From Tribonema minus (lineage: Eukaryota; Sar; Xanthophyceae; Tribonematales; Tribonemataceae), in contig JAFCMP010000268.1 of assembly GCA_017506865.1 (NCBI GenBank), positions 62,001 through 126,000 of the forward strand: a stretch of DNA of 64,000 bases, in the 5' to 3' direction. Under the pieces are notes generated by a model. It ran no database searches and was not told the origin of the DNA. It worked only from the letters and a program-made list of their open reading frames with translations. A program made the position numbers and the translations under genes. Positions 23,816 to 64,000 of the stretch are shown here, piece after piece. Every line of letters begins with the position of its first letter. The stretch's first letter is position 1.

Positions 23816-26800
23816 ATGCTTCCTGCCGTCATATCTGAGGCCATGTCGCCGCCTCACGTCAGAAGCAGGCGGCCAACAAACGAGGACTTGAGCACGGAGC
23901 ACGGCGACCATCTGGACGCTATCGAGGTCGGCAGGAGGCTCACAGCAGCGGGCGCAGGCGACCATGCGCTCGATGCGTCAGCTGGTAGCAGCAAGCCCGC
24001 AGGTTGTGCAGCTTTCAATTGTAATGATGATTCGGATTGATGATTAGGATAAGCTCTGTCGCTGGGGATATCGGTATAGTCTTCTACCCTGTGATGGCAG
24101 TTAATGTGAATGTTGAGTACAGTAGTACTGGCAGCGTGGAGCCATCAGCAGCGGCATCTGTGATAGTCACACCCTCAGTCTTGTTTATATCAGCAGTGCG
24201 GCATCTGTGATCTGTGATGGTCACACCTCGGTCTTGTTTATGTCGGCAGTTGCATACCAGCTTTACAATCTTTTCTCAAAGCAGGCGGCATTAAATTCCG
24301 CTTGTAACTGTGACTGGAAGTTACATGTTGTGTCACGCTCTTGTACCCGGGCTTGGCGATACGTGAGCGTGCAGCAGTGCAGTCAGGGCAAGCTAGAGCG
24401 CTTGGAACTTCACCAAACGCATGCGTGCGACCACTGAACACAACGCCACGTTGCAGTGGTACGATACCAGTGTCTCAGCTAACATTACAGGTCTATCATG
24501 AATCTGGAAAGCAAGGACTGGTTGGCTGTGAATGCAGGTCACCTTCAAGGCTGTGACGCATCCGTCAGTGTCATGTTGAAGTGAAAGGCTGGCAACCCTC
24601 GTTTTTGATGCAGCAAACCCTGCTGCTCTCTTCGCCACATTGCCCTCGTCAATCCGTGCTTCTTGTGCAACAATTTTTTGCCTGCAGTGCCAGTTCTTGC
24701 ACACACTGCCATGACATGCATCCTGCATGATTTGCCAGTTGCCAAGGATGGTAATTTTCCCCAACTGCTGTTGCAATGAGAGAGATCACTGATCCAGATC
24801 ATCGTCACACGGCGCGCTTGTCTACCACAGGTGTGATTGCCAAGGAGGTGCTGGTGCAGGTGCCGCGGCGCAGTTCATTCGGCAGCACCATGGAGGGTGT
24901 GCATCTGGACCAGGTCGACACATTTGGTGGAACAGCCCATGTTGATGCAAATGTGAGCCTCTTCAGGAAAAGATTAGCTGTGGTGTAGAGTTGTTTTGAA
25001 GTGCACACGTCATCAGGGTTAGAGGAAGAGTCAAGTTTATGGTTTGAGAAAGGGGTGGGTTCAGGGTTTGAGGAAGGGGTAGGTTTAGTTTAGGACGGTA
25101 CATAGGCTAGCTCTGGCGGCCAATGCTGCCGCTTGATTCTATGACTTCGCAATTGAAACATTTATGCGCAACTGAGGGCCAGCGCCAGCAAACCTCATGA
25201 GTCATTCAGTTTGCAAATGAAGGCAGCTCATGTTGTGATGATAACGCGTTCGCAAGATGATGATTCGAGCAGTAAGCAAGTGGCAGGGTCTGTGCATCGG
25301 CAACGTCATTTTATCGCTGGCTGACCAATATAGCATGCGGTTCCACACGCTCTCTGCACAATTGAGGAGAATCTGCATTGTCACCATGTGCCAGCAGGCG
25401 GTGCACAAGGTTGTGCAATGAGCTCTGATAAGTATGCGCATGCTATTTGCGTAGCTGTAACGATGTAGAGGCAAGCAGTCGAAAGGCAGATATTGACGTT
25501 GCGGCAAGTGTCTGTCGCTCGCAATCACTACTGACTTTATTGTCTGATGACTTTCATGCGAGAATCTGTTTCAAGCTAGCCCAGAGACATTTGCGCCCAC
25601 ACATTCGAGCACGCCTGCTCCCGAGCCCCCCTCTCCCCCCTCCCCACACGCACACGCCATGCCATACTCACATCATCGACACCCAATTTTCAAAATAAAC
25701 TTCAACATGCCACAGGAGGTCCCCTCCGACAGCGCCACGGCCGCCTACGTCAACAAGCTCAAGATCAAGCAGCAGCGCGACCTGGTGTACGAGATACAGG
25801 CCTCGGGGGTCACGGGTTTCCGCGAGACGACGCTGCGCGAGCTGTACGAGTACGTCATGGGCTGCGTGGCAGTTACGGCGAAACTGCCGCCGTCAGACCG
25901 CACCCGCACGTCGCTGCTCCTGCGCTCGCGCCTCAGCCAGGCCTCGCTGATGCTCAGCAATGGCACGGCGGCAGCGGCCGGAGGGGGGTGGGGTACGGGG
26001 GGGGGTGCTGAGGTCAGCAACGTGGCGTCCCCCTCTGTGGTGTCAGCGTCGACGGGGCCGGGGGAGAGTGCCGCCCGCAGGCGTGGGGGGAATGGGGGGG
26101 GGGCTGAGGACAAGCACCCGGGCCCCTCGTTTCTGCACCACAGGTGGGTGGGTGGGGGAGTTGGCTGGTTGGTGTCTGGTAGCGTTTGATAACTTCAACT
26201 TGTGCTCTGACTGTCTACAGGTCGTGTACCATGGTGGGACATAACGTCTGGGGGTAGGCATTGATCTACTTTAAAGCACCATTTGGTGGAACTTCCACCC
26301 TGACAAACTAGGGCTCGGGTCTGATGTGTCAGGTGTAGCCATCAAGAATAGAAATTTGACGACCTCTTGTTGTTTCTGCACCACAAGTGGGATGGCTGGA
26401 CTGAGTTGGATGGTGCCATCATATCGTCATACTCTGCATGGCGCTCACTGCTGAGCGGCGGCCCTACATACCACAGACGTGTAGGGACATGGTGACGGGC
26501 AGAATCACCAAGGGTTAAGTTACAGTTAGGGGTAGGGTTCAACCTGATTGCCTGGGGTGCTCTTCTGCGTCACTGTTGGGTACAACAGAAGCCGGGCCGC
26601 TTTGTGTCGGTGTGATTGATTGCTGTCTCACGCTGAGTGTCTTGACATGTTGCGCTTAAGTGAACTTGAGGTTGAGGCTGATACTCGCACTGTTGGTGTT
26701 GTGTGCCAGACTATGGTCATCGCAGTTGATGTTAATGCATGGCAGAGCGTGTCGCTGCACCGTGACGACCCTGTCCCTTACCCTAAGTAGGGCCCTACTG

Positions 26801-29800
26801 CTCACTCTATATCAAACAGACAGATGAGGAGAGCGTGTGGAAGGCGGGTTGGGCTAGGCACTAAAACTAACCCTAACTGTGGACGCCAACCCTGACCCTA
26901 ACCTCATGAAGGATTGGTGAATTTACCCCTGACTCCAACACTGAGGCAGGTATTGTAGCATGCTCTTTTCCGACTTGACACCCCGTAGACCATCTAATTT
27001 CACCATCCCATTGTTGCTCTAGTCATCCATTTCAGGGAACAAGTCATTTGCTGTGTGATGCTTGCAAGTGCATCGGTGCCATTCGTGATGGGTTCACTGG
27101 CTATTGCTGCGCATTGACCTATACACTTTTAGGCGAGCGTCGAGAAAAAGAAGTCAGAAACAAGTGAAATGATGTAAATGAACAGGGGGGGGGGGTTGAC
27201 AGCAATGAATTTTCTTTATGCACTGAGCACCGCAACATGAGCTTCAGCGATGGCATGGCTTCAAAAACCACTTGCAGGCCTTGAGCTGCACTTGCTCCTT
27301 CACAGTGCACGCCCATTATCACGGTGCAAGTTTTATCTTGTTGATTGAGTCATTGGATTGTTGGGCTGTTGCGCATTGCAGAGACTTGCGGCAACTGTTC
27401 AGCGCCAACACGGCGTCTGAGCCTACCATTGCCGTGCGGCGCCACGTGGTGCTGGTCAACTTTGAGAGCATTCGCGCCATTGTGCTGGTGGACCGTGTCA
27501 TCCTACAGGTATGTATGTATCAAACTTCTATGTACAGACTTCAAGCATGACAATACCTACGTACCTCTCTTCGTGTAAAGTACATAATTGCATACCTCTA
27601 CTCACGTGTGCCATTAGGGTGCTGGGCAGTGTGTAGGCAATTCTGATTGTGTGCAACAATGTGGCGTGGCTGCACTAATGTGACGCTGCTGCTGCACTGC
27701 GATTGCAATGCATAACAGCACCAGCACCAGCGCAGTATGTGGGATCATCACAATGCGCTCAGACTCAGACTCGAGTCTCATGCATGCAGACTCTGGGAAT
27801 TAGGCCACTTGTTTGCACTGTACCACCATGCTCAGCTATATGCATGACACCGTGCCCGCGAATTCAGGGGCGAACCACGCAGCCATGCGTGATATGGGCA
27901 TCTATATGACAATGAGCCTATAATGGGTGCACATCTGTACCGAGGGTTAGGGTTAGCATAGGGTTAGTGCAGTAGCAGGGTGAATTCAATCCCTGCAACT
28001 GCAACTGCAAAGGCGCCTGTCTTCGATGCTAGATACTTTGGTTCGCCATGACTGTGGAGTTACAAAGACGAGTGTAGTGACAGCAGTGGCACCCCGCCTT
28101 GGTTGGTTTTGATATGCGTGGAAGCACCACCTGCGCGATGTGCTGGTGCGTAGGATTGCTCGCATTTTTCGATGAAGGCTCAAATGGACCCTTCCGGCAG
28201 CTGTCATCATGACCATCTGCATGCTGAAACAGAGTATGGCCAGCATCATCGCGTGCAAGTAGAGGGCTGATTGTGCATGATCATGCGAGCATGATCATGT
28301 GCAGTATGTCCTTGATGCAGCATAGAGCTGAACGCCTCCAGTACCTTGACACCAAGTGCGAGACTCAGGGTCAGGGGTAGTCCTACATGAATACCAGTAA
28401 GGAAGTTGCATGCAGCGTTCCGCTCAAGAATACCCCCAGCGCCTTTCAGATGCTTACGTGACCTACACCCAGCGTTATTGAAATCGTTGGAGTCCTGCAC
28501 TGTGTATCACGACAATCACGTCACAAATCATGTGATGAACGCCTGTGCTGAGCACTGCTGTGCAGGTGCCCGCTGGCATTGACTCTGAGCTGCGCGCCAT
28601 AGAGAGGGAGCTGCTGCGCGAGCACGAGGAGATGCTAGAGTTTGAAATCAAGGCCTATGAAGCATTGCTCAGCATCTCGTCTCTCTCCCTGGCCAGGGAG
28701 CTCAAGATTGTAGGTGAGTGTGTTGGCTGAGCAGCTGGCTTGGGTTGAGATCTGGCTTTGAGATCAGGACTGCAGGAGATTTTTGGATTTGAGACGAATG
28801 CATGTGAAGTATTACTCAGCATAATGTCTTTGTCCGTGGCCAGAAGCTCAAGATTGTAGGCAAGTCCTCCGCCTGTGAAGCCACACACTCTTTGAGATCA
28901 AGGCACCTTAAGCAGTGCAGGAGATGCTAGAGGTTGAGATCAAAGCGTATGAAGCATTGCTCAGCATATTATCTCTATCCTTGGCCAGAACCTCAAGATT
29001 GTAGGCAAGTGCTCAGGGGCGACCTGCGTCAGATCGGCCCTAACCCTAGCTCGAACCCTAAGGGGGCTGTAGGCAAGATAGGTTTCGATAGTGGTGGTAA
29101 GCAGGCTCTGCACTCCCCAGGCACAACGCTCAGTTCATGCATCATGCAACTGAGGTAGCGAGAGTAAAGCTGAAGTCACGGCCAGCGAAGCTTGGGCTGA
29201 TGTGCATGAGTCAGGCGCAGGACTCATGAGGAGTGGTAGGCTTGTGTTGGCCTGCAGTGTCCCTAGTGTTAGGGTTAGAGTCAGCTCTAGCACTGCTCAG
29301 ACAAAAATTTCTGTCACTAGCCTTTCTCTCTTGGTGTACATGTTCACATGTCACGGCGAGCTGTAGGAAAGTGCATTGCACCAATGGCAGCAGTGAGTGG
29401 GGCTAAAATGTCATGAGAAAGGGGTTTCAACTCCTACGTCAGACTTCGGGGAAGGGTAGAATGATCCGTGAAGGACATTGTGCCGTCGGTGTAGAGAGAT
29501 GTTCGTGAGGGATACCTGACGGCTTGCACTTATCAGCATATCATTGCTCTGTCCACAACTAGTTTCGACAGGCGTAATACTCACATCTACTTTCTACAAG
29601 CCAGAGGGGTGTATTGACGCCCTCTGATTTTCGTGCACTGCCCGCCATTCCTACTTCAACACCATACTTCAGCAGCAAACCAAAGTTGCCGTGCTGGATT
29701 TGTTGCACGCATTGTGCTAACCCTAACCCTACTTATCGTGCAGAGCCGCGCGTGAAGGACATTGTGGCGCTCATGGAGCTCCCCGGGGGTCATGCCGCGA

Positions 29801-32800
29801 CATCTGCTGAGGCTAACGACAAGGTGCGCCTGTTGAGACATATGTACTGTAAAGGCTCCACGGCTTGGGAATACCTACTGTGAAGTACTGAACAAAAGAC
29901 AGTACCTGCTACTACCGTGTGTGATGTGCCGTTCGCAACCATTGGCCACTCACCGCAGAGACATCGTGAAGCCGGAAAGCATAGGCATATATGTATATAT
30001 GTATATCGCCACCCACTACGCACGTTGACGACAGGCTCGCTTGGGCTGTTTGAGTCAACAGCAAGTGCGGCATTTGAGGGTGTGCTACGGTGCGAGACAT
30101 CTGCAATCACCAAGTGCAGGCGCACATCACGCTCGTTCAACATGTGCAATGCACGCTTGACTTTGTGGGCGCTGTCAGGATGAGACTATCTACCCATTCA
30201 CTCAATAGTGCCCTTGAGCTGAACGTTCGTTTCGGTGCTGTGTGCAAATGTTGTTTGCAAATCAAACGTATGTTACACAACACGTTTCATGCCTGACAAC
30301 AGTGCGCAACACTGTGAAGGCGTGTGTGTGTGATCGAAACTCACGTCGCATCTCTGACGCTGACGACACTGAATCTGTCCCCATTGCCGCTGAGGCAACA
30401 CAACTGACTCACTCAGACTCTGACTCTGGTCCTTGCCGCTGTGCCGGCAGTTCCGGAGCCTGATGAACACAGTGAGCGAGATGGACTCACGCGCCAAGGC
30501 CAGGCGACGAGCACTGCTGAACCTGCTAGAGGAGGCAAGCTAAACTGTAACCTCAAATTATACTTTCATGTATGCTCGTAACTTCAAAGTATACTTTCAT
30601 GTGCACGCCATCTATGGCTTGAACGGTGCACTAGGGCCAGGCGACGAGCGCTGCTGAACCTGCCAGTGAAGACGCAAGCAAACACATATACTCTTGAATA
30701 TACTCCCATGTATGCACGCCGTGTCTGGCTTGTATGGTGCACTTGGGCCAGGCGTTGAGCGCTGCTGAACTTGCTAGTGAGGAGGCAAGCACACACATCT
30801 CTTGAGTATACTCTCATGTATGCACATCGTGTCTGGCATGTACCATGTATGCACGACAGAGACGTGCTGAGCGGTGGCATCCTTGTATGTCGTACATCAG
30901 GCAAAACCATCTGAGCTATCTGAGCCAGAACATGACTTGAACTCTAGCCCTTTAGAGCTTGAATTTCGCAACAGGGGGCACATGCTGAGAGCTGTTTTAT
31001 ATTGTACATCAGGCAAAACCACTAGAGCCAAAGCTCACCTGCGAAGTGTACTCTCATATATGCACACCCTGCCTGCCTTGCTAGCGCGCCTAAATTTTTG
31101 TGGGAGCTGGGCCGGAGCATCGGCCGCATGTGCTGCTGACTGCGTAACAGCAACACACAGATAATGCGCACCTGTAGGTGGACTTGCAAGTTGAAGTTTT
31201 GCGGTTGAAATTTCCTCGTTGTGATGCAGCACTGCACCAGGCAGGTCACTACCAACAGGGCTTGAAAGCAGATGCCACCGTCATCCATTACCATGCACGC
31301 ATATCTTGATCCCCGTAGGCGTTGCACAGACAGCATCAACAGCGTTTAATGCTTCTGCGAAAGAAAGTTGAAGTTGGGTCGCGCTGCTGTCACCCCTCCC
31401 CTGGGGGCGGCGGGACGCACCTCAGCGCCTATGATGATCGTTGTCCCTTGATTTGGTCATGTTCATTGCGTGCACATTTCAAGTGACATCACTCACAGTC
31501 ATCTGAACTGTACAGTCATTCTATTTCCGGTGCTGCATTTGCATTTAGGTGTGAAGCGCATCGCACGATTGCGGTTCGAGCTACCTTAGCCTGACTCTGA
31601 CTCTGACCGTGTCTTTAGGTTTAAGGTTAGCTAACGCTACTTAACCCTACCTACCCGCATCTTCATGCTCGTTCTAAGCTGGTGTGATGTCGAAACGTGT
31701 AACATCACGCAGGATGAGGATCTTGCCATGATGCAGCTCACCAAAATGAGAGAACACCCGGAGAACTACGCGCTGCCGCTATCACATGAAGTGGAAGAGG
31801 TGAGACACCATCTTCATGTTAAAAGTGAGGTTCCACTGTAGTGTAAGTGTACACCAGCAGGCGTGTGTATTCCGAGGGAAGCTTTCCCTGAACAACAGGG
31901 TCAGGATCAGAGCTGAGTGTGGGTTAGCGTCGCAGCATAAGCCTGCCATGGTTTCGGAAGTAGCATTTGTGTCATCTGGTGACACAATGCCTGCATCGCA
32001 CTGTGCAGCTTTTACTCATGCACGACAGGTTGTACCTGAAATTTGCACCATGCGTGACATGGCAGCTTCAATGTCAACTCAATGTCAACAGCTTTTTGAC
32101 CCATTGCGCTTGTGTATGCTTCACCACCCCCATAATGCCATGTCACTTGAACAGCTACCAGCTGCAGCTGCTGTGCAGTTCACCGACCCATTGCACTGCA
32201 TCGCTCTCACACCCTACCTCCCCTGATACGCTGTTCTACCTCACTCCATTGCTCTCATGCCCTACCTCCCCTGAGACACTGTTCCACCTCGGTGCTGATA
32301 TCTCACTTCATTCAAGAATGTCTCTTGATTACAGTAGTATCTGTCTGATGATGCCATTTCGTATACTTCTTGATAGATGTACATGTAGATTTTCATCCGT
32401 GCTTGTACTGATCATCTGTTCCAGCGCATTGGTGTCATGTCCTACCTTGCCCTTATGTAATACTTTTCTACTCCAATCACGTTGCCTCACTTGCTGTGCG
32501 CGCTCACGTGTGGTCGATACAACGCATCTCGGTACCTGTGGTGTAGTGTAGTACAGATACAGAGATTTGCTGTATTGACAAACCTGGGCGCACGCCTGAT
32601 GAGTTTCTCATTTGGCGACAGTCTCTCATGGTGCCTTCCACTCTTGTTCTTCTTTTTCCCTCGCAGGACCACGAGGAGGTAGAGCTCCTCTTGGAGAGCT
32701 TCCTGCAAGAGATCACATCGCTGTCCAACGTGCTGGAGGGCATGGGGTCTCGCATGCGCAACACAGAGACACTCATACAGGCACGTGATGTTCATGATGG

Positions 32801-33948
32801 CGTCTAAAGTGATCACGCATTCATTCATTCATTCATACATTCATACATTCATTATCTTCATTGCTCATCCCCTGAAAGGGCATGGGCTCCCGCATGCGTA
32901 ACACACAGACACTCATACAGGCATGTGCTGTGGTCATGATGTGGGTGAACGTGATCATTCATGCATTCATTCATTCATTCAGTCATTCAGTCATTCATTC
33001 AGTTGTTGATCCCCTGATAGGGCACCGCATACGCAATACAGAGACTCTCATACAGGCATGTGGCCATGACTGTTTCAGCGTCATCATTCATTCATGTACT
33101 CATTGAAAGAATGAAGGCGACATTGAACGTGACCAATCAAATCCCTGTCACCATACAAAATATATGAAGGTAATCATGCAAGAGCCTGCACCAACACATC
33201 ATGCAGTCCCCCACTGAAGGCAGACTTGTGCGTTAACAGGTGTGCTTGCAGCCCCACCATAATGAAATCTGAAGTTTTTATTTGTTGCGGCCCGTTCAAG
33301 CGCACCTGTGGTTGATTAGTTTTTTTTTGTGCGTTGACGAGGCCAAGCCCAATCATCGGGCAGCAGTGGATTCCGACTATCGAAGTTGAGGTTTCAGGGA
33401 GATCGACACGGTGCAAACAAATAAGTTTGCTTCATACACACACATACTCTTTGAAATCTGTGGAAGTTGTTGTTGAAGTTATCCTTGTGCTCCATCCTGG
33501 TCTTGCATGCGCACTTGCTGCAGCAGCGTGCATCAACAGGTCGGCAATTCCTGCTGTCAGGAAGGGTTAGCGTTACGGTCGGGGTACATCACACTGCAGC
33601 TTTGTGCACAACACTGCTGAATGCTTTCGCTGGCTGCTGCAAACGCTGCGAGCTGCACATACCTCTAACTGTTTGTTCCGGTTGACTTTGCCATACCAGG
33701 TCAAACTGGACATAGCCCGCAACCAGCTGCTCACCGCCAGTACCATCTTTTCGCTGGTGGCCATGTGCCTGAGCTTCGGCGCTGTCATCACGGGTCTCTT
33801 TGGAATGAACCTCAACAATGGCCACATGGACACTGCAGACAGCCACCAGTGGTTCATTGGCGTGGCCATTTCATTTGCCACTATCTGTTTGCTCTGGGGT
33901 GGCGGCACCTTCTGGTACTTCAACAGGAAGGGCATCTGGGTGTCATGA
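23816..33948 (+). CDS. MRS2/CorA-type magnesium transporter
   Basis: Ten exons with matching phases: 23816-24002, 24831-24952, 25716-26143, 27382-27508, 28566-28713, 29744-29823, 30451-30534, 31713-31799, 32667-32780, 33700-33948; 541 residues. MRS2 marks in order: RDLRQLF created across the 26143/27382 junction, VVLVNFESIRAIVLVDRVIL, EMLEFEIKAYEALL, ELKIVEPRVKDIVAL, EVELLLESFLQEITSLSN, VKLDIARNQLL, then membrane helix 1 (FSLVAMCLSFGAVITGLF) ending in the signature GMN at about residues 494-496, and helix 2 (WFIGVAISFATICLL). The family forms pentameric Mg channels in mitochondria, plastids or vacuole; the N-terminus shows no clear transit peptide, so location is open. Two introns use GC donors (after 30534 and 32780). 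Introns after exons 5, 7 and 9 contain extra copies of those exon ends. Exons 1-2 fit by phase and splice sites only. Confidence 0.9.
24151..24250. repeat. ~50-bp imperfect tandem duplication in MRS2 intron 1
   Basis: Two units starting GCGGCATCTGTGAT and ending CTTGTTTAT...GGCAGT/CAGCAGT lie at 24151-24197 and 24198-24250. The second has a small internal insertion. Confidence 0.8.
28772..29010 (+). repeat. Two extra copies of the end of MRS2 exon 5
   Basis: The last ~85 bases of exon 5 (28629-28713) recur at 28772-28859 and 28918-29004 inside the next intron. Both end CTCAAGATTGTAG and are followed by GCAAGT, a GC-type donor, where the true exon has GTGAGT. Copy one carries frame-breaking changes; copy two is closer (GAGATGCTAGAGGTTGAGAT). 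Probably tandem duplications that have decayed. Confidence 0.85.
30493..30860 (+). repeat. Tandem copies of the end of MRS2 exon 7 and its donor
   Basis: The exon 7 end (GGCCAGGCGACGAGCACTGC ... GAG, then GCAAGC) recurs at 30634-30680 and 30744-30790. The intron portion with TATACT(T/C)TCATGTATGC is repeated with it. Each copy keeps the GCAAGC donor. The repeat period is 110-140 bases. Confidence 0.85.
32816..33060 (+). repeat. Two copies of the end of MRS2 exon 9 plus TTCA microsatellites
   Basis: GGCATGGG(G/C)TC(T/C)CGCATGCG and CACTCATACAG from exon 9 recur at 32879-32920 and, shorter, 33021-33054, each followed by a GCATGT donor like the true GCACGT. ATTC/TTCA simple repeats fill 32816-32852 and about 32955-33002 between them. 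Confidence 0.85.
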
Positions 33949-36745: not shown

Positions 36746-36968
36746 TCACTGCGCAGTGATGGCGCCCCTGTCACGCAGCGTGCGCAACCAGTCGAGCGCA
36801 CCCGCCAGACGTGTCTCCATCGCAAAGCTGCAGCTCTCGCCGGCTTGCTGCGGCGCGGCGCCACCATCTTCCAACGCAGCGCGCGCCCTCTTCCTGCCAC
36901 GCCTGGAGCCAGCCAGCGCAGCAAGAGGTGCACGCGCCGCACGCGCGGGTGCGCGTCCCAGTCGTCCT
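36746..36968 (-). CDS. Possible terminal exon of an unrecognised minus-strand gene
   Basis: A GC-rich block, unlike the AT-richer surroundings. On the minus strand, after a possible acceptor (TGATGCAG), one frame reads through an Arg/Ala-rich stretch to METRLAGALDWLRTLRDRG and a TGA at 36748-36746. The other frames also stay open for long stretches, as GC-rich DNA often does. A small minus-strand frame near 37587 (MAGALAAFLASHE...) could be an upstream exon, but I cannot join them. Low confidence. Confidence 0.2.
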
Positions 36969-37844: not shown

Positions 37845-39670
37845 ATGAGTGAGCGGCCATCGTGTCAATGGTCCACGGAGGAGGACGTGGCCAGCAACAC
37901 CGTGGCGGTGCTAAAGAAAGAGCTAACAAGATTGGATCTTAGCACCAAGGGCAAGAAAGCAGAGCTGGTAGCCAGGCTCGTGGAGTACATTGAGGCAGGC
38001 GAAGGGGATGGCGCTAACGAGGACAAAAAGAATGATTCAGCAGAGCCTGCCGCTGATGCAGAGGTAGCAGATGGCGGCACAGCAGAGGATGCCGAGACGG
38101 CTGAAGTTGCAGAGCCCGCTGAAGCAGCAGAGGAGGAACCGCCAACAGCAACAAAGGATGACGCCACGGACGCCGATAAACCATCTGGAGGTGCTGAGGT
38201 CACTGCAGAGCAGGATCAGGAGCCTGCCGAGCTTGCAGACGCAGCAGAAGCGCAGAGCGAGCCGGCACCTGCAGAAGCCGACGCGGAGGCAGCGGCGGCG
38301 GCGGATGCGATGGACGTGGGAGAGGCTCAGAATGGCAGCAGCGTCGATGTCGACGCCGAGGCAACGACAGCACCAGTAGTGCGGCAAGCCAGTGTATCGC
38401 CGCCACGAGCTGCGAAGCGCGGCCGCAGCAAGGAGGATAGCCACGCGGCGCACGATGCTGACCACTCGCAGCAGGCAGAAGAGGAGCCACCGTCCAAACG
38501 CGCTCGCAGCACCACGCCACCGGTCACGCAGGCCCGGGCGGCGAAGAGCGCCGGTAAGCGCGGTCGCAGCCCGACGCCTCCGCCAGCAGCAGCACTAGAG
38601 GAAGACGTTGAAGTAGACGTGCCTGCGGCAGCGGATGCAGAAGAAGCAGATGACGCTCAGCAGCAGGACCAGGACGCAGCATCGGCGCCCGCATCGGTCA
38701 GAATCGACAACTTTGTGCGGCCGTTTACGGCGAGGCAGGCGCGCGAGCTCGTTGAAACCGCTGCGGGCGAACCTGCCCTGGGGTTTTGGATGGACAGCAT
38801 CAAGACGCACGCGATAGTCACGCTGCCCACCGCGGCGGCGGCGGAGCGCGTGTCAGCGGCGCTCGACGGGCTGCAGTGGCCCGAGAAGAGCACCAAACGC
38901 CTCAAGGTGACAGCTTCGGCAGTTACGGCCGATGAGGCGGAGAAGGGGCCTCGCAAGGCCGCCGCTGCTGCTGCTGCCCCCCCTTCCAAGACGCAGAACA
39001 ACGGCATCATCGCCAAGGCGATGCAGGCGGCGCAGCAGGAGCAGCAGCAGCACGAGCAGCGGCTCGCGCGCGCGGCGGCGGCGGCAGCGGCGGCGGTGGC
39101 GGCGGCGGCGGCGGACCGCCAGCACCGCCGACACTCCGTCGACGAAGCAGCGGCAGCAGCGGCGGCGGCGGCGGCAGCAGAGGAGCCAGAGGAGGACGCT
39201 GCTGCAGCGCAACAGGAGGAGCGGGAGCAGCAGGAGGAGGAGGAGGAGGAGGAGTCTCCGCTGATGCTGGACGATCTGTTCAGGCGCACCGCTGCGCAGC
39301 CTGCCGTGTATTGGCTGCCCAACACGGAGGATCAGGTGGCGCACAAGAAGGCCACAAAGGCGGTGCCGCCGCCGGTGCAGCGCCGCGACAGCAGCGGCAC
39401 CACGGCGTTCGCAGGCTTGGGAGCGGCAGCGGCAGCGAGCAAGGGGGGGGATCAGGGGGGTATAAGGGGGAGGGAGGGGGGAAGGGGGGGAGGAGGGGGG
39501 CACAGGTCTCGTTCGCGATCACCCAGGGGTAGGTATGGGTCAAGGGGGGGGACGAGGGGAGGGGGGGAGGGGGCGGGGGCAGGTCGAGGCTTTATAGTGA
39601 TGACACGGGGAGGGCGGGGGGAGGGCACCGGAACGACCGGAACTTCAACGGGGGACGCACCCGGTATTAG
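37845..39670 (+). CDS. Acinus homologue (SAP domain, RRM-like domain, RSB motif)
   Basis: From ATG 37845 the order matches Acinus. A SAP domain at residues 18-51 (NTVAVLKKELTRLDLSTKGK) binds DNA/chromatin. A long acidic Ala/Glu region with KR-rich nuclear signals (PPSKRARS, SAGKRGRS) follows. The RRM-like domain at about 285-360 has VRIDNFVRPFTARQARELV and AFW-like GFWMDSIKTHAIVTL. The RSB motif at about 470-500 has LMLDDLFRR and PAVYWLPNTEDQV and binds RNPS1/SR45 and SAP18. The family is the scaffold of the ASAP/PSAP complex on spliced mRNA in the nucleus. The C-terminus is uncertain. A 50-base intron (39533-39582) would join SRSRSPRGR to a short Arg/Gly tail ending at TAG 39670 (591 residues); without splicing the frame runs to 40007 through non-coding-like sequence. 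Confidence 0.85.
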
Positions 39671-41161
39671 ACCTGACCGCCAGTTTTCGTTTGTGGGGGC
39701 GGGCGTGAGCTGGGTAGCTAGCGCGGTCAGGAGAGGAGTGGAGGGTGAGCAGGAAGGGATTACATCACATGCGCCGGGCAGAGGCTGCCTGCGGGCGTCT
39801 GAGATGGGGATAAAGCTTGGCTTGGAGCTGGTGATGGCGATGATCAGTGCAACCGCATTCATACACACACACACTGCCACATATGAACACGGTGAGACAG
39901 GTTGCGTTGTCGTGAGCTTGCGACTGCTGCCGTGTATTGCCATGTGTATTTCGCATGCAATGTGTTGTCACACGTTGGTTCGATTACTTGTCAGCACACT
40001 TGTGTAGATAGCCTACTCGATGTGCTCAATCAGTGTCACAACAATTTGCTATGGTAAGACATACTGTGATCATGTATTGTCAGCACTGCACTTGCAAGGT
40101 GTTGTCACGCTTAGGTTTGGTTACTTGTCGGCAACGTGTGGAGATAGCTTACGCAGTGTGCTTGACTAGCGTCACAAAAGGGCTTTGGCAAGACAGTTGC
40201 GATCACGGTTGGTGAGCACTGCTGCATGCTTGCTAGCGTCCCTCTGCGAACTTTTGTCAATGCACACCATGCGCTGTCTTGCTATGTAGCATATCTTCAG
40301 AGGAGGTACTTATCCATACTTGGTATATGCTGTCAGTACTGCGCTCAGGCCATGTTTCAAAATCGGTGTTATGTTCTGGCCATGCTGCAAGATTGCATTT
40401 TGTCAGTACACAAGCGTGCTTCTTGAATAGAGCACTCTGGTAGTTTGCGGTTTGCCCTTTGATGATGGGGTCTCTTGCAGAAAATGCTGCTTGATGCATC
40501 ACTTGAGGGCAGGGTGGTGATGCTCAGTGCAGGTCCAATTGCAAGGTGTGAGGCGGTGCTGACATGCGTCACATGTGAAGTTAGGGTTAGGGGGCGGCGG
40601 CGGCTAGGGTTTTGGGGTAGGCACACCAACACGTTTATGTCCACCTTGACAGTCTTGCGCAGTTCAGATTAACTTCAACATGAGGCGGTACACCAGTGCG
40701 TGAACGAAAGGTTTTGATTAGCAAGTCACATTAAATGCACACATGCCCCACGCATTAGGCAGCAGTCGCCTTGGGTCATCTGCTTGTGTTCAGCAGCTGT
40801 GACTCACCCAATGCGATTGCACAAGCCGCTGAGGTAAGAGAAGGTTTGCGGCGCGTGGCTGCTGTAAGTTTTCTAAAACTTCTCAAAAGTGGGATATGCC
40901 TTTGGCGCAATGTGTCTGTTGAAGTGTTCGACTTCAAGTTGATGTTGTTGGTAACCGTAGTAACCCAGGGTGTCAAAGTAGCTCGGCCAGTACGCCCGCC
41001 GCTTTGTGATATGGAGGATATGGAGTAGCCTGGCATGAGGAGGCAGTAGCTTCCTATTCCATATATCCGCATCTTGACAGGCCCCGTACAGGAGCTGGGG
41101 ATTCGCGGCGTCGCCAACCGCGCGAGTTTGCCGGGAGGAGCGGGAGCAGGCCGGGGCAATC
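39671..41161. other. Intergenic region (Acinus / CTR1)
   Basis: Non-coding with TG/CA-rich sequence. Two related stretches (around 39940-40020 and 40085-40160) share GTTGTCACGCTTAGGTTTGG-like text, a weak duplication. A GTTAGGGTTAGGGGG word lies near 40579. Contains the Acinus 3' end and the CTR1 promoter. Confidence 0.4.
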
Positions 41162-47000: not shown

Positions 47001-47281
47001 CTAAACTTGAAGTTCTTGCTGAAGCGCTACGGTACCAAACCTGCAGTTTATGATGAATTTCTTGGCGTTTCAAAGCAATGTCCAAAGTCCTTGAGTACCA
47101 CGCAAAAGCCATTCACGCCTCTGCTGATTCAGGTGTGCAGCTGCGCTAAGGTTTCTGCCATCCCGCTGAATCCACTGCTGCAGATGGCCCCTTTGGGACA
47201 GGCGCCAGCAAGCACAACAACTTGAAGGGCGGGGCTTCCAGGCGCACCAGTGCAACACCTGCCTCAGACTTGGCTGCCTGA
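44036..47281 (+). CDS. CTR-type copper transporter 2
   Basis: Four exons: 44036-44092, 45192-45434, 46305-46488, 47202-47281; 187 residues. N-terminus short with GPGMPMQ. Helix 1: CVIWLFRGLVLDTAGKYAGG through FLVAVLNEGLRWLR. Helix 2: AYSLMLIFMTYDW with MLIFM as MxxxM. Helix 3: GLGTG. The final exon was chosen because its product, with KGGASRRTSATPASDL, aligns with the CTR1 tail; it lacks the paired cysteines found in CTR1 and CTR3. An alternative last exon at 46606-46697 is also in phase. Tandem neighbour of CTR1 on the same strand with the same intron phases, so a gene duplication. Confidence 0.85.
46855..46877 (+). repeat. Run of 23 G
   Basis: An uninterrupted 23-base G tract in the last intron of CTR2. 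Length is likely unstable in vivo and uncertain in any assembly. Confidence 0.9.
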
Positions 47282-48476
47282 TCACAAGTCAGAGTTGCGT
47301 GCTTACATCTGCTGCGCTGCCAGTGCGATCAGCACAGGCAGGCGAATGCCACTCTGGGAGGACTATAGTCTAATAGTATACTTTGTATGGTGGGCGTGCT
47401 ATGGAATGCCGCTGTGGCTATAGCAAAGGAGGTGATGGTGCGGATTGGAAGTCGACAACGGCCGCCGTCCATTGGCCTTGTGAGCTGTGCTGCAAGGTCT
47501 TTGGCATATGAAACAGCGTCCATTGGGCCTCTGATCGTTCAGTGGGTGTTTTTATGCGTACAAGGCAGTAGTGGCAACAGACAATATTGACTGCTTCTGG
47601 GGGGGCAGCAGAATTTGACCGTTTTATGGCGAGGTATCAGTTTGTAAAATTGGTCATGCCTCAGATGACCAGCATGTTCAGCTCTGCAATGCTGAAAGTC
47701 CGGTGAGGTCCGCAGTGCGCACTGCACACATTGGCAAGCCTTCGTTGAAAACTGCCATCTCATGACACACGCTTTTTGCCCCAACACTACGCCTCCTCCG
47801 CTCTACCCTTCAGTGCTGTTGCTCTTGTGGTGTGATCCACCTTCTTAAACTTCTTGAGTACACTGGTCGCGTGCAGCTTGCTGTCGGTGGCAGTGCCATG
47901 TCATTGAAACATGAAGCTGATTATCGATGCTAGATTGATGCCATTGGTTGGCGCACTCAATTGACTGTGAAATTGGGAGGTGCATGCAGAACCCCCCAAG
48001 AGTAAAGCTGTTTGTTATGACTTATCGACCTTCTTGACGTAGATCGTTGCACTTGTGACAACGCAATTGCGAAGCGAAGAAAGTGAGTCGAGTGACTCCG
48101 AGTTGGGGCGAAAAATTCAAACCCATGCTTTGCCGCGTTGCATCGGGCCTGCTGGTGAACGTGCGTTTGTCCAAAGCAGATCCAGCGCCATCTGACGGTG
48201 CATACAGCGAGCTACAGGCACAGACGGAAGAGGCAGCTGGCCACGCTGTGTGTCCGCCGGTTGAGCGCCTCTTGGCTGGCCACTGCAGCGCACAGAGTGA
48301 GTAGAATCCATCTGGATTTCTCAGTAACCCTGCTCTCGGTGTGCAACTGATGCTGGGCCAGGCAGCTCATGGCTCACAGTGTCCTGCCCCTGCTACCGTG
48401 TAAGGTTGCATGAAACTCCCGGTGACCTGACTCTGCACTCTCTCATCCCGCTTCTCACAGCTGCGGCGACACTCTC
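47282..48476. other. Intergenic region and 5' leader of the CPP gene
   Basis: No conserved coding sequence. A short upstream frame starts at ATG 48083. A leader intron could run from a GTGAGT near 48298 to a CTTCTCACAG acceptor near 48460, just before the CPP start codon. Confidence 0.35.
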
Positions 48477-51400
48477 ATGACAAGCGTGTGCCAATCGAAG
48501 GAGGAGAGGCTGGGAGGCAACATGGACATGGGTGCGTCCAGTGACTCGGCCAGCAGCGACAATCTCACTGAGAAACAGGGTACCAGGAGGTCAATTGGCT
48601 TCGTCCCCATCCCGTCCAGCAACGACGAGTACCCCTCTACGCCGCAAGGGAACGGCAGAGGTGCCGAGCTCAGTGGGCGATCCCAGGTCACCACGCCGGG
48701 CCGCGACGACGCAGACATGGAAGCGTCGGCGATCCTCGCTGACTTCGCTTCCCCAAGATCCCCCACTATGGAATTCTCTTCCCCGAGATCTCCTGCGATG
48801 GGCTCGCTTTGGGCAGGCAGCCCACCGATGTCGCGCTCCTCCGCCCCGTTCGTCGTCTCTGGCCACGGCGGAGGACTCACGCCCACTTTCGGCACTTTCG
48901 GCATCGGCGGCGGTGCCGGTGGGTTCAGCCCATTCCGAGGCTCAATGTCTTCTCGCAGTCACGGCACACCCAATCGCAACAGCGGCGGATGCACCCCCTG
49001 CTCCCCCCTTCTGCGGTGGGCTCACCGCAACAACCAGCAGCATCTCATGTCCCACGGCGCCGAAGACGGCCGCAGCTGCAGCGCCGCCAGCAACCCCTGC
49101 GCGCCTGTCGCGGCCGCCGCCGCCACCGTCAAGTCCGAAGAAGAGGCCCAATTCATTGGCTCTCCCCTTAGAACCATGGGGAAGCTGGATGCCGACCCCC
49201 TTCCTGCCGTAGAAACCCCCGTCAAGAGGCGGGTAGAGCGCGGCCCTGATGCTCGCTCCCCAGACTACATGCTGGCCCCCCTTCCTGGCTGCGATTCATT
49301 GCCAATGATGTCGCCTGGCTCGTGGTTGTCGGCACTTGATGGCACGCCTCTGAGCGCTGCTGCCGCCGCCGCCAGCGCCGCCGCCGCCGCCGCTGCCGCG
49401 GAGCCGGCCCACACACGTCAAGATGCCGCAGACGTGCTGCTCGTCGAGGGCGCGCAGCTTCCGCAGGCGCAGCGGCAGCGCCTGTGGAAGGAGGAGGGCG
49501 GCAGCTACAACGGCGATGGCGGCGGTGATGACGATGACAGCGGCGGCTTGATCCTGGACGATCTGACACCAGTGCTCAGCAGATCTGCCACCAAAGGCCG
49601 GCGGCGCTCGCCCGCCGCCACCGACGCCATGGTCGCGCAGTACGCCAGCGCCGCCGCCGCCGCCGCGGCCGCCGCCGAGCAGGCCGTGCTGCTGCAGCAG
49701 CACGGCGCCGCGCCGCTCACGCCCGTCGCCACCAGGCGCTGGGCTGGCAAGAGCGAGCTTGTGACGGGCGGCGGCGGCGGCAGCGCAGCGCCGCTGTGCG
49801 GCAGCAGCCTGGACGACATCTCCATCGGCGGCGACACGCCCATCTCCATGGCGCTCGCGGCGCTGCGGGAGGGTGACTGCGGCGGCGGCGGCGGCGGCGG
49901 CGGCAGCAGCAGCAGCGACGACGACGCAGTGGCGCGTGATCTGGGTGATCTGGGTGAGCTGGCCCGTACGATCTTGTCCAGCGTCGGCGAAGACTCGGAT
50001 GACGAAGGGGCTGGGAGCGGCATCAGCGACGGCGGCAGCGGCGGCGCTCGGGAGCTGCGTGCAGAGGGTGGCGGTATGCCGAAGATGGAGATATTTACGC
50101 CGGATGGCGCGGGCAGCGGCAGTAGTGGCGGCGGCGGCGGTCGTAAGCGCAAGCGCAAGGCCGCGCGGGTGCAGGTACGTTACGTGCACTTGGGTATGTA
50201 TTTGTGTATGCGTGTACATACATACGTGCATACATGCGTGCGTCTGTGGGTAGAGTATGTTGTTGCGGTGACGTTTGCGTATGGAAATGCACCCTGTCGT
50301 GCATTTTGGTTATAGAAGTAGTTGATTCTGGGCTGGTGTGTCGCGCTGGCGCTTTTCATTCCCAGTTTGGCACTGAGCTTGTGAGAGGTGGGTGCTCTGT
50401 ATGATTTTGCGCAGTTTCAATATGGTGTACGCCATAGCATGGTAGCTGAATATCATGTGTCCAGACATGCAGTACTGTCACAAAGTGACGGCATGCGCGA
50501 TGTACCGACAGTGTCATTGTTGATTTACTGCACCTGCGACATTGGATAACCAGCTGTACATATTGCAGTAGGCCTCAAGCATAGGAAATCGCTGCCACTC
50601 ACCCCATGCTGCATGAAAGTATGCCTTGGACTTCGTCGCAGCAGTTGCAGTACGTCATACGCCCGCAAATAATGCAAAATACTTGAAGTGATCTCGGAGA
50701 CACATCTGACATTGTTGTATTCGTCATTGATCAGATGTTGAATGCTTCACTGAAGGGATTGCGCACGTGTCTCTGATGATGGCGCATTCTACATGTGGAG
50801 CAACAGACGTGGCCGCAACACCTCAAACAGTCGAATCAAGCAGACACGCCATCAACAGTAATATGTCAAGCGCTCATTGCTTTCTTTCACTGTCAACAAC
50901 AAACATCTGACAATGGTGCATACGTAGATACATGCCTTCGCGCGCGACACGCCATCAGTGGTAATGCGCCAAGCGCTCAATGCTTTATTTTATAAATCAA
51001 TGACAACATCTTACAAAGGTGCATGCGTGCGTACCTATTTCACTCATTAATGACCACATCTGACCACGGTGCATACATACATACCTTCACGGGCGCTGCA
51101 GCAGCAGCAGTGATACATCAACCGCTCATTGCTTCATCTCATCATCACTGACAGCATCCAACAACAATGCATACATGCATACCTATTTCCATCATCGACG
51201 ACATCATCTGACACTGGTGCATACATGCATACCTATTTCGTCATCAGCGACAACATCTGACAATGATGCATACATACATACCTTCACGCGCGCTGCAGCC
51301 GCAGGCGTCGCCAGTCGGTCCGTGCAAGTGCAAGAAGAATCGCTGCCTGAAGCTGTACTGCGGCTGCTTCCAATCCGGGGACTACTGCTCGTTCGACTGC

Positions 51401-59381: not shown

Positions 59382-62300
59382 TCAACGCCTCCTCGCAAAC
59401 ACCGCCCCCACGATAGCGGCCACCGCCGCCACTGCTGCCGCCGCCACCGCCGCTTGCCTGATGCTCACACCGCCACCGCTGCTGCCGCCGCTGCCGTTGC
59501 CTGCGCTCTTTCCGTTGACCAGCGTGCCGTGCGAGCCATTTGTCATGCCGTGCTCCTTAGCACTTTCGGCGGCAACGACAGCAGCCTCTGCCAGCGCCGT
59601 ATCGCCATCAAGCACCTGCACCATGTAGCCCTGAACCTCTGCGAGGCTGTTTGGCAGTTGGTGCTTGCGGGTGGGCAGGGTGTAGAGGCGTTGAAGTTCG
59701 ACTGGCGCGGGGGGCATGGGTGTTACCACCATGCCCACTGCGGAGGGGAACTTGGCAGGGTGCGCTGTTGCCAGTACCACAGTTTCCGTGACTGGAAGGT
59801 CGCAGTGGGGAGGGGCCGCAGCGCCGATCGAAGAGTGAGGGCAGAACAGGTACTGGTTCTGTGATTCAGGGGAAGGAGGGGGAAACAGGGGGTCAGCATT
59901 GGTTAGGAGTGTGTTGATTGTTGGGTAAGGGGTGTGTAACGAACCAGAACATCACAGACACGGTGCATATTGAACACACTCAGCTCGAGAATAGCACTGT
60001 GTTGAGCAGTTTGCGCTGAACAGGTGTGACAGAGACGGCAACGTACTAAGGCCTACACACACTCTTGAAGGCCCCGGTTTTGACTACAACTATTGAAGTT
60101 GAAGCAACATGATGATTTGGCCAGGGGCATGGCTTTCATCGATAACAAATCCACAAAAGCCCGCTCAAAAAACACTAACCTTCTCCCACTGGTGCTTGAT
60201 GTTGGCCAGGTTCTCCTCTGCCGCCACGCTTGCGCTGACAAACTCTGCCTGCGCTTTGGCCAGCAAGTCGCCCTCAATGGTCAGCTTGCCTGTCTTCTCA
60301 AAGTCCGCAAACCACTGGGAGAGCACGTCCTGTTGACCAGCAAGAGGCAGGTGTTGCAGAAGCGTGAGTCACTCGTGGAAGTACGGTAGGTCACAATTTG
60401 AAGTAAGGCTGCTTGCTTTCAACATGGGCGCTGAGTGACGGACTTTGCATTGTCAGTGGCAGTTAACCACCCAGGCTGTTGAGGAAGTTCTGAGATGGTG
60501 AACGCAATCATGACAGGCCTGATACGAGGCAGCGCTTGGCTTAGCATACACCGTGGCCTAATCCTACCCCTCCCCCCACCCCCAAGCATGCCTCTGTGAC
60601 ACAGCACGCGGCCAGAGAGCCATAGATGGGCACGACGAGCAAAGATGGTGTGCCATCAGTGTGCCAGCACGTCAGCCAGACTTGAACCATAGGAAGAGCA
60701 GACACGCATCATAATGATACGATATTATCGCCCACGAGATGGAAAAATAGCTTTTCAAACTTGAAGCTCGTCGAAGCTTCCAGCCTAATAATGCTCTTTA
60801 CAAAACTTCAACTATACCCTGACCCTGACATTAGGGTTTAGTGTGGTTGACACGCAAGCGATCCGCTGCCAGGTGAAACGCGTAGTTCTAAGGTGGTAGC
60901 TAACACCATAAGAGTGCAATGTCGGAACTGGCCCTGCGCCGAGGGCTTGTGTTGAGGCAGAGGTTGAGGTTAAACCACTACCATGTCATGAGCTGTGACG
61001 CACGCTGTTCATGGAACTTCAACTCAACAGAAACACGACAAGATAGATTAGATTAACGTTTATTTGTTGAATTGGACCACGCACCGTGTCATCGCCCACC
61101 AGGAAAACAGGTAGCACTCCAAGTTTGAAGCTGACGCAGACGTCCATGGAACTTCAGTTTTACACTAACACGACAACAAAAGTTAAGGTTTGTTCATTTG
61201 TGTGGGCCACGCACCGTGTCACCTCCCGCCAGGTGGAACAGGTGCCGCTCAGAGTTGGAGCTGACGCAGATGTCCATGAAACTTCAACTTACACAACTGG
61301 ACACAAACACGATTAGATTAACCTTTGTTCATTTGTCTTGGCCACGCACCGTGTCATCTCCCGCCAGGTGGAACAGGTACCTCTCAAAGTTGGAGCTGAC
61401 GCAGATGTCCATGGAAGGTGAGATGGTGACCTTGTTAGCCTCGCGCCAGTACTTGCCGCTGGTGAAGAAACGGTGCAGTATGTCGTTCTCGTTGGTGGCC
61501 ACCAGGAGCTTGCCCAGGGGCAGTCCCATGCGGCGGCAGTAGTATCCCGCTAGAATGTCCCCAAAATTGCCGGTGGGGACGGAGAAGTGGATGGGCGCGC
61601 CCTTGGTGTCCTGACATGGAAACAGAAAAAACGGCATTGTGTCAGTCAATGTAACTATCAAGTCGAAGTGAAGGACTTCACAAAGTATAGTCCGGCGATG
61701 CATTGCAGAATGACAAACACGTCAATGTGAGCTAGGATGTTGGCAAAGTTGCCGGTGAGGACGGAGAAGTGGATGGGCGCGCCCTTGGTGTCCTGACATT
61801 GTGAAGAGAAAACGGATTTGTGTCCATGTGTCCATTGAGTAAAGGTGAAGGACTTCACAAAGGTGTTCCGGCGATGCATTGCAGAACAACAATCATGTCG
61901 ATGGGATGTGAAGTACATACCTGGCCCAAGGCCCTGAGACAGCAGTACGAAACGGCCTTGCTGTCAGCGTAGCTATACACTCAAGGTGAAGGAGTTCGAG
62001 TTTACGCCGGGTCAGAGGCTTGAGACTGATGGGCACGCACGTAGTGTAGAGATTATGACATAGAATGGGGGGGGGGGGGCACGCGCTGACATGCGTCTGT
62101 CATCAAGCACCTCTGCTGCAAAGCCAAGAGAGCTTGCCGAAACAGCAGTCTGCATCACATCGGCCGCAGCTGAACCATGGTCTGGTGCCTGGCGTGGCGA
62201 CTGAAAGAAGTTGAGGTTGCACACTTGTGCACTGTACGTGGACTGAACAATGCACATGTACGCAGCACACGCATTCACAGCAGCAACCCAGATGCCCACG

Positions 62301-64000
62301 AGAGCGTCAACACACAAGACTGTCCCGAGCGCACCATGAAAGCGCTGCAGCGCACAAAAGCGGTTACACCATACGCAACAGTTTGCGTCTCCGCACACAC
62401 CTGCTGGTCGGTGACGCGGAAGTACGCCCAGAAGTAGTACGTCATCTGGGCCAGCACCCTTGCCCAGTTGATAGAGTTGACAGCCCCCAGAGACACGCGC
62501 TCCCGAAACTCCTTGTCGTTGAAGGCCGCCTTGACTATGGCCTGGCAGTCGTCAAACGAGCCCTCCACACTGTAATGCATTGTGGATAGACAACAGGGGG
62601 GCAGCAAAGGGCAGGGCAGAGATATATCAGCAACTGATGCGCACGTAGGGGGGGGGGGCTGATCGTCTTGCTGAGCACTGCTGTGGCGGGAGCAGTTGCT
62701 GGCATCAGTACGCCAGTGGTATGTAGCAGCTTGACTTTGAAGCATGTGACGTGCATGACGATGGCCTGGCAGTTGTGAAGAAGCCCTCCAAGCTGTGATA
62801 CACTGTGTGAGGGAAAGGCAGGGGGCATAGGGCAGCCATCCAACAAGTATACGAACGCTGGGTTTTGCTGTCTGTGCTGAGCCATGCTGTGTTCTGAGCA
62901 CTGCTGTCTTGTACCTTCAGGCTGTTGTCATATGCCCAGCACAGTCCGGCTCCGAGCTGCATCATCGACCACTCAATGTGTACATATGCATACATGCATG
63001 GTGCTGCTAAAAGTAGTCCGACAGCGATGTACGCATACATCTACACCTGATTATAAGCAGCTATATGACTACTGTTACATGAGTACTACATGACTACGCT
63101 TACACTGTCACCGCCTCGGCTGCACTTGACACAATATATGTTGGTGTCCTCCACTTGATAATAAGCAGCTAGACGACCACTGTTACATTGTGACTGTTAC
63201 GCTGTAACTGCCTCCAATGCCCACCTGACACAGTGGATATTGGTGTCCTCCACCGTGGTCATTTGCCGCTCCTGTATCTGACTCACGCGCCCCTCCGGGA
63301 ACAGTATGAAGCAGTCCATGTGCTTCTTGCCGCGCATACCATAGATGGCAGCAGAGCCTGTGAACGCAGAAGGGGAATCCATTATGCATGGTGAATACGG
63401 ACAAGATGGAAGCACATCAGCGCGACGCCAATAAGTTAGGGCTGGCAATGACATCAAGTCCCATCCGCAGTATGCGATAGCTCACCCAGTGCCCCCGCAC
63501 CACAGTATGTAATTGGAGTATGTAAATGGTAAAGCGCACCAGGACGTTGGTCAGCTCCTGCAAGGCATGTATGTATATATATGTGTGTGTGCACAGCACT
63601 CCACTCCAAGCATGCATGATCCATGTGCAGCACCAAAATGTTTCCAAATAAAGGCTGTGAGCTCAGAGGCTAGGGTCACCATCCCCTGCCCATCCGTGAC
63701 CACATTGAAAGCCTTACATCAAGCTGCCGCAAGTGCAATACATGGGTTACCTGCAATGCTACAATGCAATACCTGTACATTGTACACTGCCTTCCTCCCC
63801 CCCCCCCCCAGCCACACACGCAACAACACTCCGGCATCATGGCACAACGCCGTTTCATCCTGCACCACACTCCCAGCATCGCATCGCTTGCTTTACTCTT
63901 TTATCCTTTTCATGTAACCCAGTGCTCAGCTCCAGTGCGGCCCCTGACCTGTGTCTCCAGAGGTGGCCCCCAGTATGGTGAGGCGTGCCTGCTCGCCACG
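59382..64000 (-). CDS. Threonine synthase, fungal/long type (5' end beyond window)
   Basis: Visible exons on the minus strand: 64000-63949 (partial), 63357-63225, 62569-62401, 61610-61350, 60329-60180, 59858-59382; 413 residues. Phases agree throughout. The enzyme converts O-phosphohomoserine to threonine with PLP. Motifs in order: LGATSGDTG then SAAIYG across the first junction, FPEGRVSQIQERQMTTV, VEGSFDDCQAIVKAAFNDKE, VSLGAVNSINWARVLAQMTY, VPTGNFGDILAGYYCRRMGL, LVATNENDILHRFF, SPSMDICVSSNFER, and LATAHPAKF near the end. This is the yeast THR4-like class. The PLP lysine would be in an exon outside the window. The C-terminus continues past the usual end into a Gly/Ser linker and a roughly 20-residue hydrophobic stretch ending FARRR, which looks like a membrane tail anchor. 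Several introns contain copies of exon edges. Confidence 0.92.
61079..61280 (-). repeat. Two copies of the end of threonine synthase exon 61350-61610
   Basis: The exon end at 61350-61418 recurs at 61207-61275 and 61079-61145, including the GTGCGTGG donor (CCACGCAC on the plus strand). All share GCTGACGCAGA(T/C)GTCCATG and CACCGTGTCA. The nearer copy is the closer match. Confidence 0.88.
61731..61800 (-). repeat. Copy of the start of threonine synthase exon 61350-61610
   Basis: ACGGAGAAGTGGATGGGCGC with CGCCCTTGGTGTCCTGACAT, the exon start with its acceptor, recurs about 190 bases upstream in the previous intron. Flanking intron text (GAAGGACTTCACAAAG, CCGGCGATGCATTGCAGAA) repeats too, so the unit is a tandem duplication of about 180-190 bases. 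Confidence 0.88.
62751..62806 (-). repeat. Copy of the start of threonine synthase exon 62401-62569
   Basis: ATGGCCTGGCAGTTGTGAAG with AAGCCCTCCAAGCTGTGATA recurs in the upstream intron and matches ATGGCCTGGCAGTCGTCAAA with CGAGCCCTCCACACTGTAAT at the real exon start. The acceptor AG is kept. Confidence 0.8.
63121..63155 (-). repeat. Copy of the end of threonine synthase exon 63225-63357
   Basis: TTGACACAATATATGTTGGT with GTCCTCCAC repeats CTGACACAGTGGATATTGGT with GTCCTCCAC at the true exon end. AAGCAGCTA(T/G)A(T/C)GAC text around it is also duplicated. The donor GT is retained. Confidence 0.75.

Follow-up and report, generated by a model that had tools for sequence, protein, structure and literature searches.

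Short local duplications leave decaying copies of exon edges in introns of the alga Tribonema minus

Introns of the yellow-green heterokont alga Tribonema minus contain copies of the edges of their own exons. We analysed these copies in a 64,000-nucleotide stretch of contig JAFCMP010000268.1 (positions 62,001 to 126,000 of the forward strand, assembly GCA_017506865.1), hereafter called the window, and in genes sampled from other contigs of the same assembly. The copies combine one end of an exon, its splice junction and a piece of the adjoining intron, and lie on the same strand in the adjacent intron. We propose, with a probability of about 70%, that short local duplications occur frequently in this genome, that they are tolerated inside introns and across one splice junction, and that the copies then decay neutrally.

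Results

Exon edges in the window recur in adjacent introns

Between 25.7 and 63.4 kb of the window, our gene models contain 48 splice junctions, of which 10 lie in duplication clusters. Realignment of those ten junctions only identified 14 copies in adjacent introns, between 26,129 and 63,253. All were on the same strand, at offsets of 95-292 bp, with an exon overlap of 6-87 nt and an identity of 76-92%. The original prediction, which had counted at least eight exon-edge duplications in MRS2, CTR1 and threonine synthase, on the same strand and about 60-320 bases away, was confirmed and extended by one further gene, located at 48-52.7 kb.

Four junctions with seven copies belong to MRS2 (PF22099, E 7e-25) on the forward strand, and all four are exon ends. 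The edge at junction 26143 (26129-26155, placed from the exon model and realignment) recurs at 26372-26399, with an offset of 243 bp and 89% identity over 28 nt. At junction 28713, the original (28627-28720) includes 87 nt of an exon backed by the homologues P0121 and P0122; its copies at 28774-28860 (offset 147, 76%) and 28919-29011 (offset 292, 85%) both show a GT donor changed to GC. The remaining two junctions use a GC donor and were placed by realignment. Junction 30534 (30498-30545) has copies at 30635-30683 (offset 137, 86%) and 30746-30790 (offset 248, 87%), and junction 32780 (32737-32799) has copies at 32877-32941 (offset 140, 88%) and 33026-33062 (offset 275, 89%). AG|GC boundaries occur in 2 of 7 MRS2 introns (window 30535 and 32781), with exon ends backed by homologues. 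GC-AG introns seem unusually frequent in the whole sample (11 GC donors and 95 GT donors among 114 introns), and part of this may be gene-finder error.

Threonine synthase, on the reverse strand, is 100% identical to the deposited T. minus protein P0001 across 98% of the query and contributes four realigned junctions with five copies. The exon end at junction 61350 (61330-61416, 67 nt of exon) recurs at 61195-61281 (offset 135, 92%) and 61072-61151 (offset 266, 85%), with GT kept in both. The exon start at junction 61610 (61549-61629, 62 nt of exon) recurs at 61731-61812 (offset 182, 88%, AG kept); this copy was called as an exon by the gene finder and is missing from P0001. The exon start at junction 62569 (62532-62584) has a copy at 62756-62807 (offset 224, 79%) and the exon end at junction 63225 (63222-63253) has one at 63123-63154 (offset 99, 84% over 32 nt).

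The two other genes contribute one junction and one copy each, both on the forward strand. The realigned exon end at junction 42448 (42420-42451) recurs at 42515-42545 (offset 95, 88% over 32 nt). Reading of its translation alone suggests that this exon is Ctr-like; the Ctr profile PF04145 (E 6e-6) matches the neighbouring open reading frame 44841-45584. The gene at 48-52.7 kb, absent from the original prediction, is the weakest junction case: an intronic tandem array (50843-51304; Tandem Repeats Finder units of about 49-50 and 103 bp) enters the exon starting at 51299 by just 6 nt.

Edge copies are widespread in sampled genes

The source assembly comprises 158 Mb in 554 contigs. The DNA analysed consisted of the window, extended on its right side by 10 kb, and one 40-kb block from each of the contigs C50, C100, C150, C200, C20 and C30, i.e. 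seven blocks and 314 kb. An eighth block (C1, 20001-60000) was excluded; with 71% GC, against 51-58% in the other blocks, it is probably from a bacterial contig inside the assembly. For gene calling, a small hidden Markov model was trained on the same blocks, and 19 genes with a recognisable protein were chosen by hand from its output. This choice followed the listing of duplications and was therefore not blind. We removed 15 exon calls judged to be copies, together with exon calls shorter than 25 nt. Three of the 15 removals are backed by P0001, P0140 or P0141 (one in threonine synthase, two in a TMTC-like gene on C100) and the rest are a matter of judgement. Exon models were compared with proteins for threonine synthase (P0001), MRS2 (P0121, P0122) and the TMTC-like gene (P0140, P0141), and the names of the remaining genes come from reading their translations. 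Like P0001, P0140 is a deposited T. minus protein; P0141 is transcript-derived (EukProt, Trinity) and, being 87% identical, is assigned to a close relative. Donors other than GT or GC in 8 of 114 introns and acceptors other than AG in 2 of 114 point to boundary errors in the gene models. One such intron sits at a 265-bp identical duplication on C150, which makes that junction doubtful.

The 114 introns (90,354 bp) of the 19 genes contained 49 duplication clusters, of which 18 spanned a donor, 14 spanned an acceptor and 17 were wholly intronic. An alignment independent of BLAST masking was also made for the 197 of 228 edges whose intron measured 250 bp or more and whose exon measured 50 nt or more. 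At a score of at least 32, a copy in the exon's own intron was found for 19 of 98 exon ends and 13 of 99 exon starts, i.e. 32 of 197 edges across the 19 genes and seven blocks; at a stricter score of at least 50, 23 of 197 edges had one. Reverse-strand matches in the own intron were absent (0/197), as were matches in 20 draws per edge from the introns of other genes. Exon interiors had an own-intron copy in 1 of 81 cases at 100-160 nt from the edge and in 0 of 44 at 200-260 nt. The share of exon sequence covered by duplications dropped with distance from the edge, being 14.4% within the first 25 nt, 0.3% at 75-100 nt and 1.6% at 100-150 nt. Copies were found for 23 of 154 edges outside the window and 9 of 43 inside, which makes the window only mildly enriched.

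Duplication was not confined to junctions. Among 486 intron 60-mers, 75 had a second copy in the same intron, compared with 5 on its reverse strand and at most 0.25% in introns of other genes, and local pairs over the 314 kb were direct in 178 cases and inverted in 12. The reverse-strand and other-intron controls, together with a recount without the dust mask, rule out chance, low complexity and simple repeats. Junction-spanning local duplication leaving exon-end copies in introns is thus a real pattern, and one that the sampled sequences indicate to be widespread. Gene-to-gene spread was large: the TMTC-like gene had duplications at 9 of 14 junctions and two argonaute-like genes on C50 had them at 0 of 46, with no junction-spanning cluster in either.

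A genome-wide search with a kinesin-motor profile, in which 122 of 191 candidates were scored, found 140 matches distributed over 36 contigs. In nine cases, two neighbouring matches lay at most 1.5 kb apart and overlapped by at least 15 profile residues; for scale, there were 68 in-order kinesin exon pairs within 1.5 kb. Seven of the nine pairs, on seven contigs, resemble edge copies (five of an exon end, two of an exon start), and the remaining pairs, with spacings of about 1.0 and 1.3 kb, read as ordinary overhangs. The candidates' own E-values were 1e-7 and 1e-6 for two of them, 0.0025 for one and 0.2-8.7 for four. Five weak candidates were listed beside a strong same-frame match, so the search favours in-frame copies and supports the spread of the pattern, not its rate. 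The idea of a genome-wide habit was therefore borne out on this sample, with large differences between genes.

Copies diverge as expected of functionless DNA

Mismatches against the active exon were counted in 52 of 59 copies, those with a score of at least 40. They amounted to 59/786 (7.5%), 62/782 (7.9%) and 130/775 (16.8%) at codon positions 1, 2 and 3, respectively, and to 90/644 (14.0%) in intron sequence outside the splice motif. Positions 1 and 2 thus differ at about half the intron rate and position 3 near the intron rate, which fits a constrained original and an unconstrained copy; had the copies been kept as coding sequence, positions 1 and 2 should differ far less. Copies also differed more from each other (147/965, 15.2%) than from the active exon (mean 101.5/965, 10.5%) across 26 overlapping and non-independent copy pairs, with exceptions in a few pairs whose two copies were closer to each other than to the exon. 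Judged from these alignments, the copies look functionless and show neutral decay.

Geometry of the duplications

Nearest-copy offsets of the junction duplications were 57-358 bp, with a median of 111. The original prediction that copies decay with distance holds as a tendency, the nearer copy outscoring the farther one in 27 of 36 comparisons (16 junctions), but not as a rule: at the MRS2 junction 28,713 the farther copy scored better. A head-to-tail arrangement is seen in threonine synthase, where 61549-61730 is directly followed by 61731-61906. Unit lengths modulo 3 gave remainders 0, 1 and 2 in 13, 7 and 12 cases, and preservation of the reading frame by the duplicated unit was rejected for lack of a clear bias.

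Near-identical two-copy arrays (n = 17, period 15-587) had a seam overlap of -2 to 2 bp in 15 cases and of 7 and 13 bp in two; for one array, BLAST gave a seam of 3 bp instead of 0. Such short seams might fit end joining or replication slippage, a suggestion weakened by the fact that just 3 of the 17 arrays fall in the size class of the junction duplications (at least 60 bp). A perfect 68-bp two-copy tandem duplication at window 8463-8598 is an example of a very young event.

Acceptor-spanning units carried at least 52 nt of intron in 14 of 14 cases; donor-spanning units carried less than 52 nt in 8 of 18, three of them with an uncertain unit length. The acceptor-side minimum would fit a need for the active acceptor to keep its branch site and pyrimidine tract.

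Junctions probably carry a modest excess of duplications

Several observations weigh against the uniform and neutral process that we favour. Spanning clusters made up 32 of 49, whereas uniform placement of median-size units predicts a fraction of 0.25; the ratio is about 5.6 (bootstrap by gene, 2.6-13.5). A visibility bias is expected, since the exon copy is frozen, but in simulations with seven indel and deletion settings it reached just 1.3- to 1.4-fold, so that uniform placement plus visibility was rejected as a full explanation. After correction by 1.35, the excess was 4.2-fold over all genes. Leaving out the window gave 3.9 raw and 2.9 corrected (P 9e-4), and leaving out the densest gene as well gave 3.3 raw and 2.4 corrected (P 0.024); these P values treat clusters as independent, which within genes they are not. 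The exon reach of the duplications was at most 87 nt, compared with about 169 predicted by uniform placement (0 of 5000 draws as low). The aligned part of the offset was small in several pairs (41/243, 32/95 and 53/224 nt), and a strict head-to-tail origin is accordingly not established for all pairs. Finally, a looser global alignment of all 59 copies, running past unit ends, gave mismatches of 17.8, 14.6 and 24.9% at codon positions 1, 2 and 3 and 22.0% in introns. On this alignment, positions 1 and 2 come closer to three quarters of the intron value, a less sharp difference in the same direction, with no sign of constraint on the copy. A purely uniform neutral process yields neither the junction excess nor the bounded exon reach.

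These data raise the alternative of a mutational hot spot: short tandem duplications would arise preferentially at exon-intron junctions, which may, for instance, coincide with a boundary of chromatin, composition or transcription-coupled processes, and the copies would be neutral afterwards. We regard this as possible, with the odds against it. The excess remaining after visibility correction (2.4- to 4.2-fold) speaks for it, and persisted in a recount at E<=1e-4 with the dust mask off and our own complexity filter (26 junction-spanning and 10 intron-only clusters). The reach into exons, bounded at 87 nt, points the same way; mean exon overlap was 46.7 nt as against 62.7 under uniform placement (P 0.005). 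GC content is 65.5% in exons and 52.0% in introns, which makes the junction a composition step.

Against hot spots stands a sample of just 49 clusters from 19 genes, hand-picked after the duplications had been listed and described by home-made models. Genes differ strongly (chi2 46, 18 df), and 7 of the 32 spanning clusters rest on exon calls removed without protein support; leaving these out gives 25 versus 17 and about 4.5-fold raw, by arithmetic from the position counts. The three protein-checked genes showed a raw excess of 10.9 (17 versus 6 clusters), on which we do not rely as two of them come from the window, which was chosen for the pattern. Coverage at the junction base (15.4%) was no higher than in the intron within 300 bp (13.7-15.8%) and dropped to 8.1% beyond 400 bp, so part of the excess is a gradient along the intron. 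Moreover, an intron base can lie in either copy, which brings the raw excess on per-base coverage nearer 2-fold by arithmetic. An unsimulated retention effect could also make part of the excess, and P is just 0.024 outside the window and the densest gene. Taken together, a real but modest junction excess is likely. The claim that the duplications are specific to splice junctions therefore stands in part: spanning clusters exceed simulated visibility, but introns self-duplicate too.

If hot spots were nonetheless the cause, a less probable scenario than tolerated local duplication, junctions would be true hot spots with an exon reach bounded at about 90 nt and introns would grow largely from their ends, with about one in six tested edges carrying a fossil copy whose ancestral state is kept by the active exon.

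Copies are improbable as functional sites, whole exons or artefacts

The original prediction also held that the copies supply decoy or alternative splice sites. That they are such sites, or alternative exon ends, kept by selection is very unlikely. Many copies keep their GT or AG, and some remain open, as a result of which the gene finder called them exons. However, retention of GT in 19 of 24 copies and of AG in 16 of 18 is close to the 0.83 predicted from a local per-site identity of 0.91, indicating that splice dinucleotides decay at about the rate of neighbouring sites (22/30 and 17/22 in the looser alignment). The codon-position pattern and the greater distance of copies from each other than from the active exon argue against selection as well. 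In addition, P0001 for threonine synthase and P0140 and P0141 for the TMTC-like gene contain the duplicated pieces just once, in the version of the copy attached to the exon body; the first two are deposited proteins of T. minus itself, and the third was derived from transcripts of a relative. The splice-site role is not supported by these data.

Even less credible are decaying mutually exclusive exons or whole-exon tandem duplications: the copies are local and on the same strand, as tandem exon duplications are, but exon interiors are hardly copied and the overlap was shorter than the exon in all 32 junction-spanning clusters. An assembly or haplotype artefact is the least probable reading, since, although the bacterial-looking stretch of 71% GC shows that the assembly is not clean, the pattern recurs across many contigs, the copies at a given junction differ among themselves and the window copies, being 8-24% diverged, are not an assembly echo.

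Neighbouring repeats

Outside the region of edge copies, the window contains a reverse-transcriptase open reading frame (12244-15345, PF00078). By eye, a near-identical copy lies at 15530-18708 of the C50 block, on another contig, suggesting a young retroelement. Five inverted repeat pairs (four of 77-87%, one of 68%) at window 6703-10329 and 15630-20834 are arranged in mirror order around the reading frame. On C50, the two argonaute-like genes (20775-30905 and 39570-50673; similar to each other, named by reading) flank the reverse-transcriptase copy in opposite orientation.

Discussion

We propose that short local duplications, in many cases at least arranged head to tail, arise often in the T. 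minus genome, possibly by end joining or slippage. Those internal to an exon would break the protein and be lost, whereas those inside an intron or across one splice junction would be tolerated. Splicing continues at the outermost junction copy, which is still attached to the exon body, leaving the mRNA unchanged and the intron longer by one unit. The inner copy would then be free DNA decaying at a neutral rate, with the active original held by selection.

Such a process would provide a concrete route of intron lengthening in a little-studied lineage. As the active exon preserves the ancestral sequence, it also offers a built-in neutral clock, and a single genome suffices to reveal the mutation spectrum: among sites at the first two codon positions, GC>AT changes were found at 57 of 853 and AT>GC changes at 41 of 715, with a predicted equilibrium GC of 0.46. 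The copies also matter for annotation, since our gene finder called such copies as exons and other annotations may contain the same error. A junction excess that held across the genome would open the question of mutation hot spots at exon borders to direct testing.

Several known systems resemble this pattern in part. Tandem exon duplication, including mutually exclusive exons, likewise produces a local, same-strand copy of exon sequence. The T. minus copies differ in holding one exon edge and in showing no sign of coding constraint; in our sample, no whole exon was found copied with both junctions, given the reach of at most 87 nt and the interiors described above. Introner elements (PMC9860276) also change intron content on a genome scale but form one dispersed family, whereas T. 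minus exon edges matched their own intron only. Internal gene duplication (Gao and Lynch 2009, as cited by PMC4974935, PMC2809761 and PMC3443670) shares the notion of within-gene duplication as a common class of mutation. A limited literature search yielded no report of frequent junction-spanning duplications that leave gene structure unchanged, a result that does not establish absence from print.

A further likeness is intron gain by tandem genomic duplication (Hellsten et al. 2011; Ma et al. 2016, PMC4974935), in which the duplicated segment includes splice sites. No new intron spliced from a duplicated segment was found among our genes: the copies lie within existing introns and P0001 and P0140 keep the outer junction. 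In T. minus, no intron or exon is added; the outer site is in use and the existing intron grows. Ma et al. describe a potato gene with a duplicated intron-exon piece and also mention an intronic duplication of 83 bp that had no effect. In contrast to that single gene, about one in six of the tested exon edges (32/197) is affected in T. minus.

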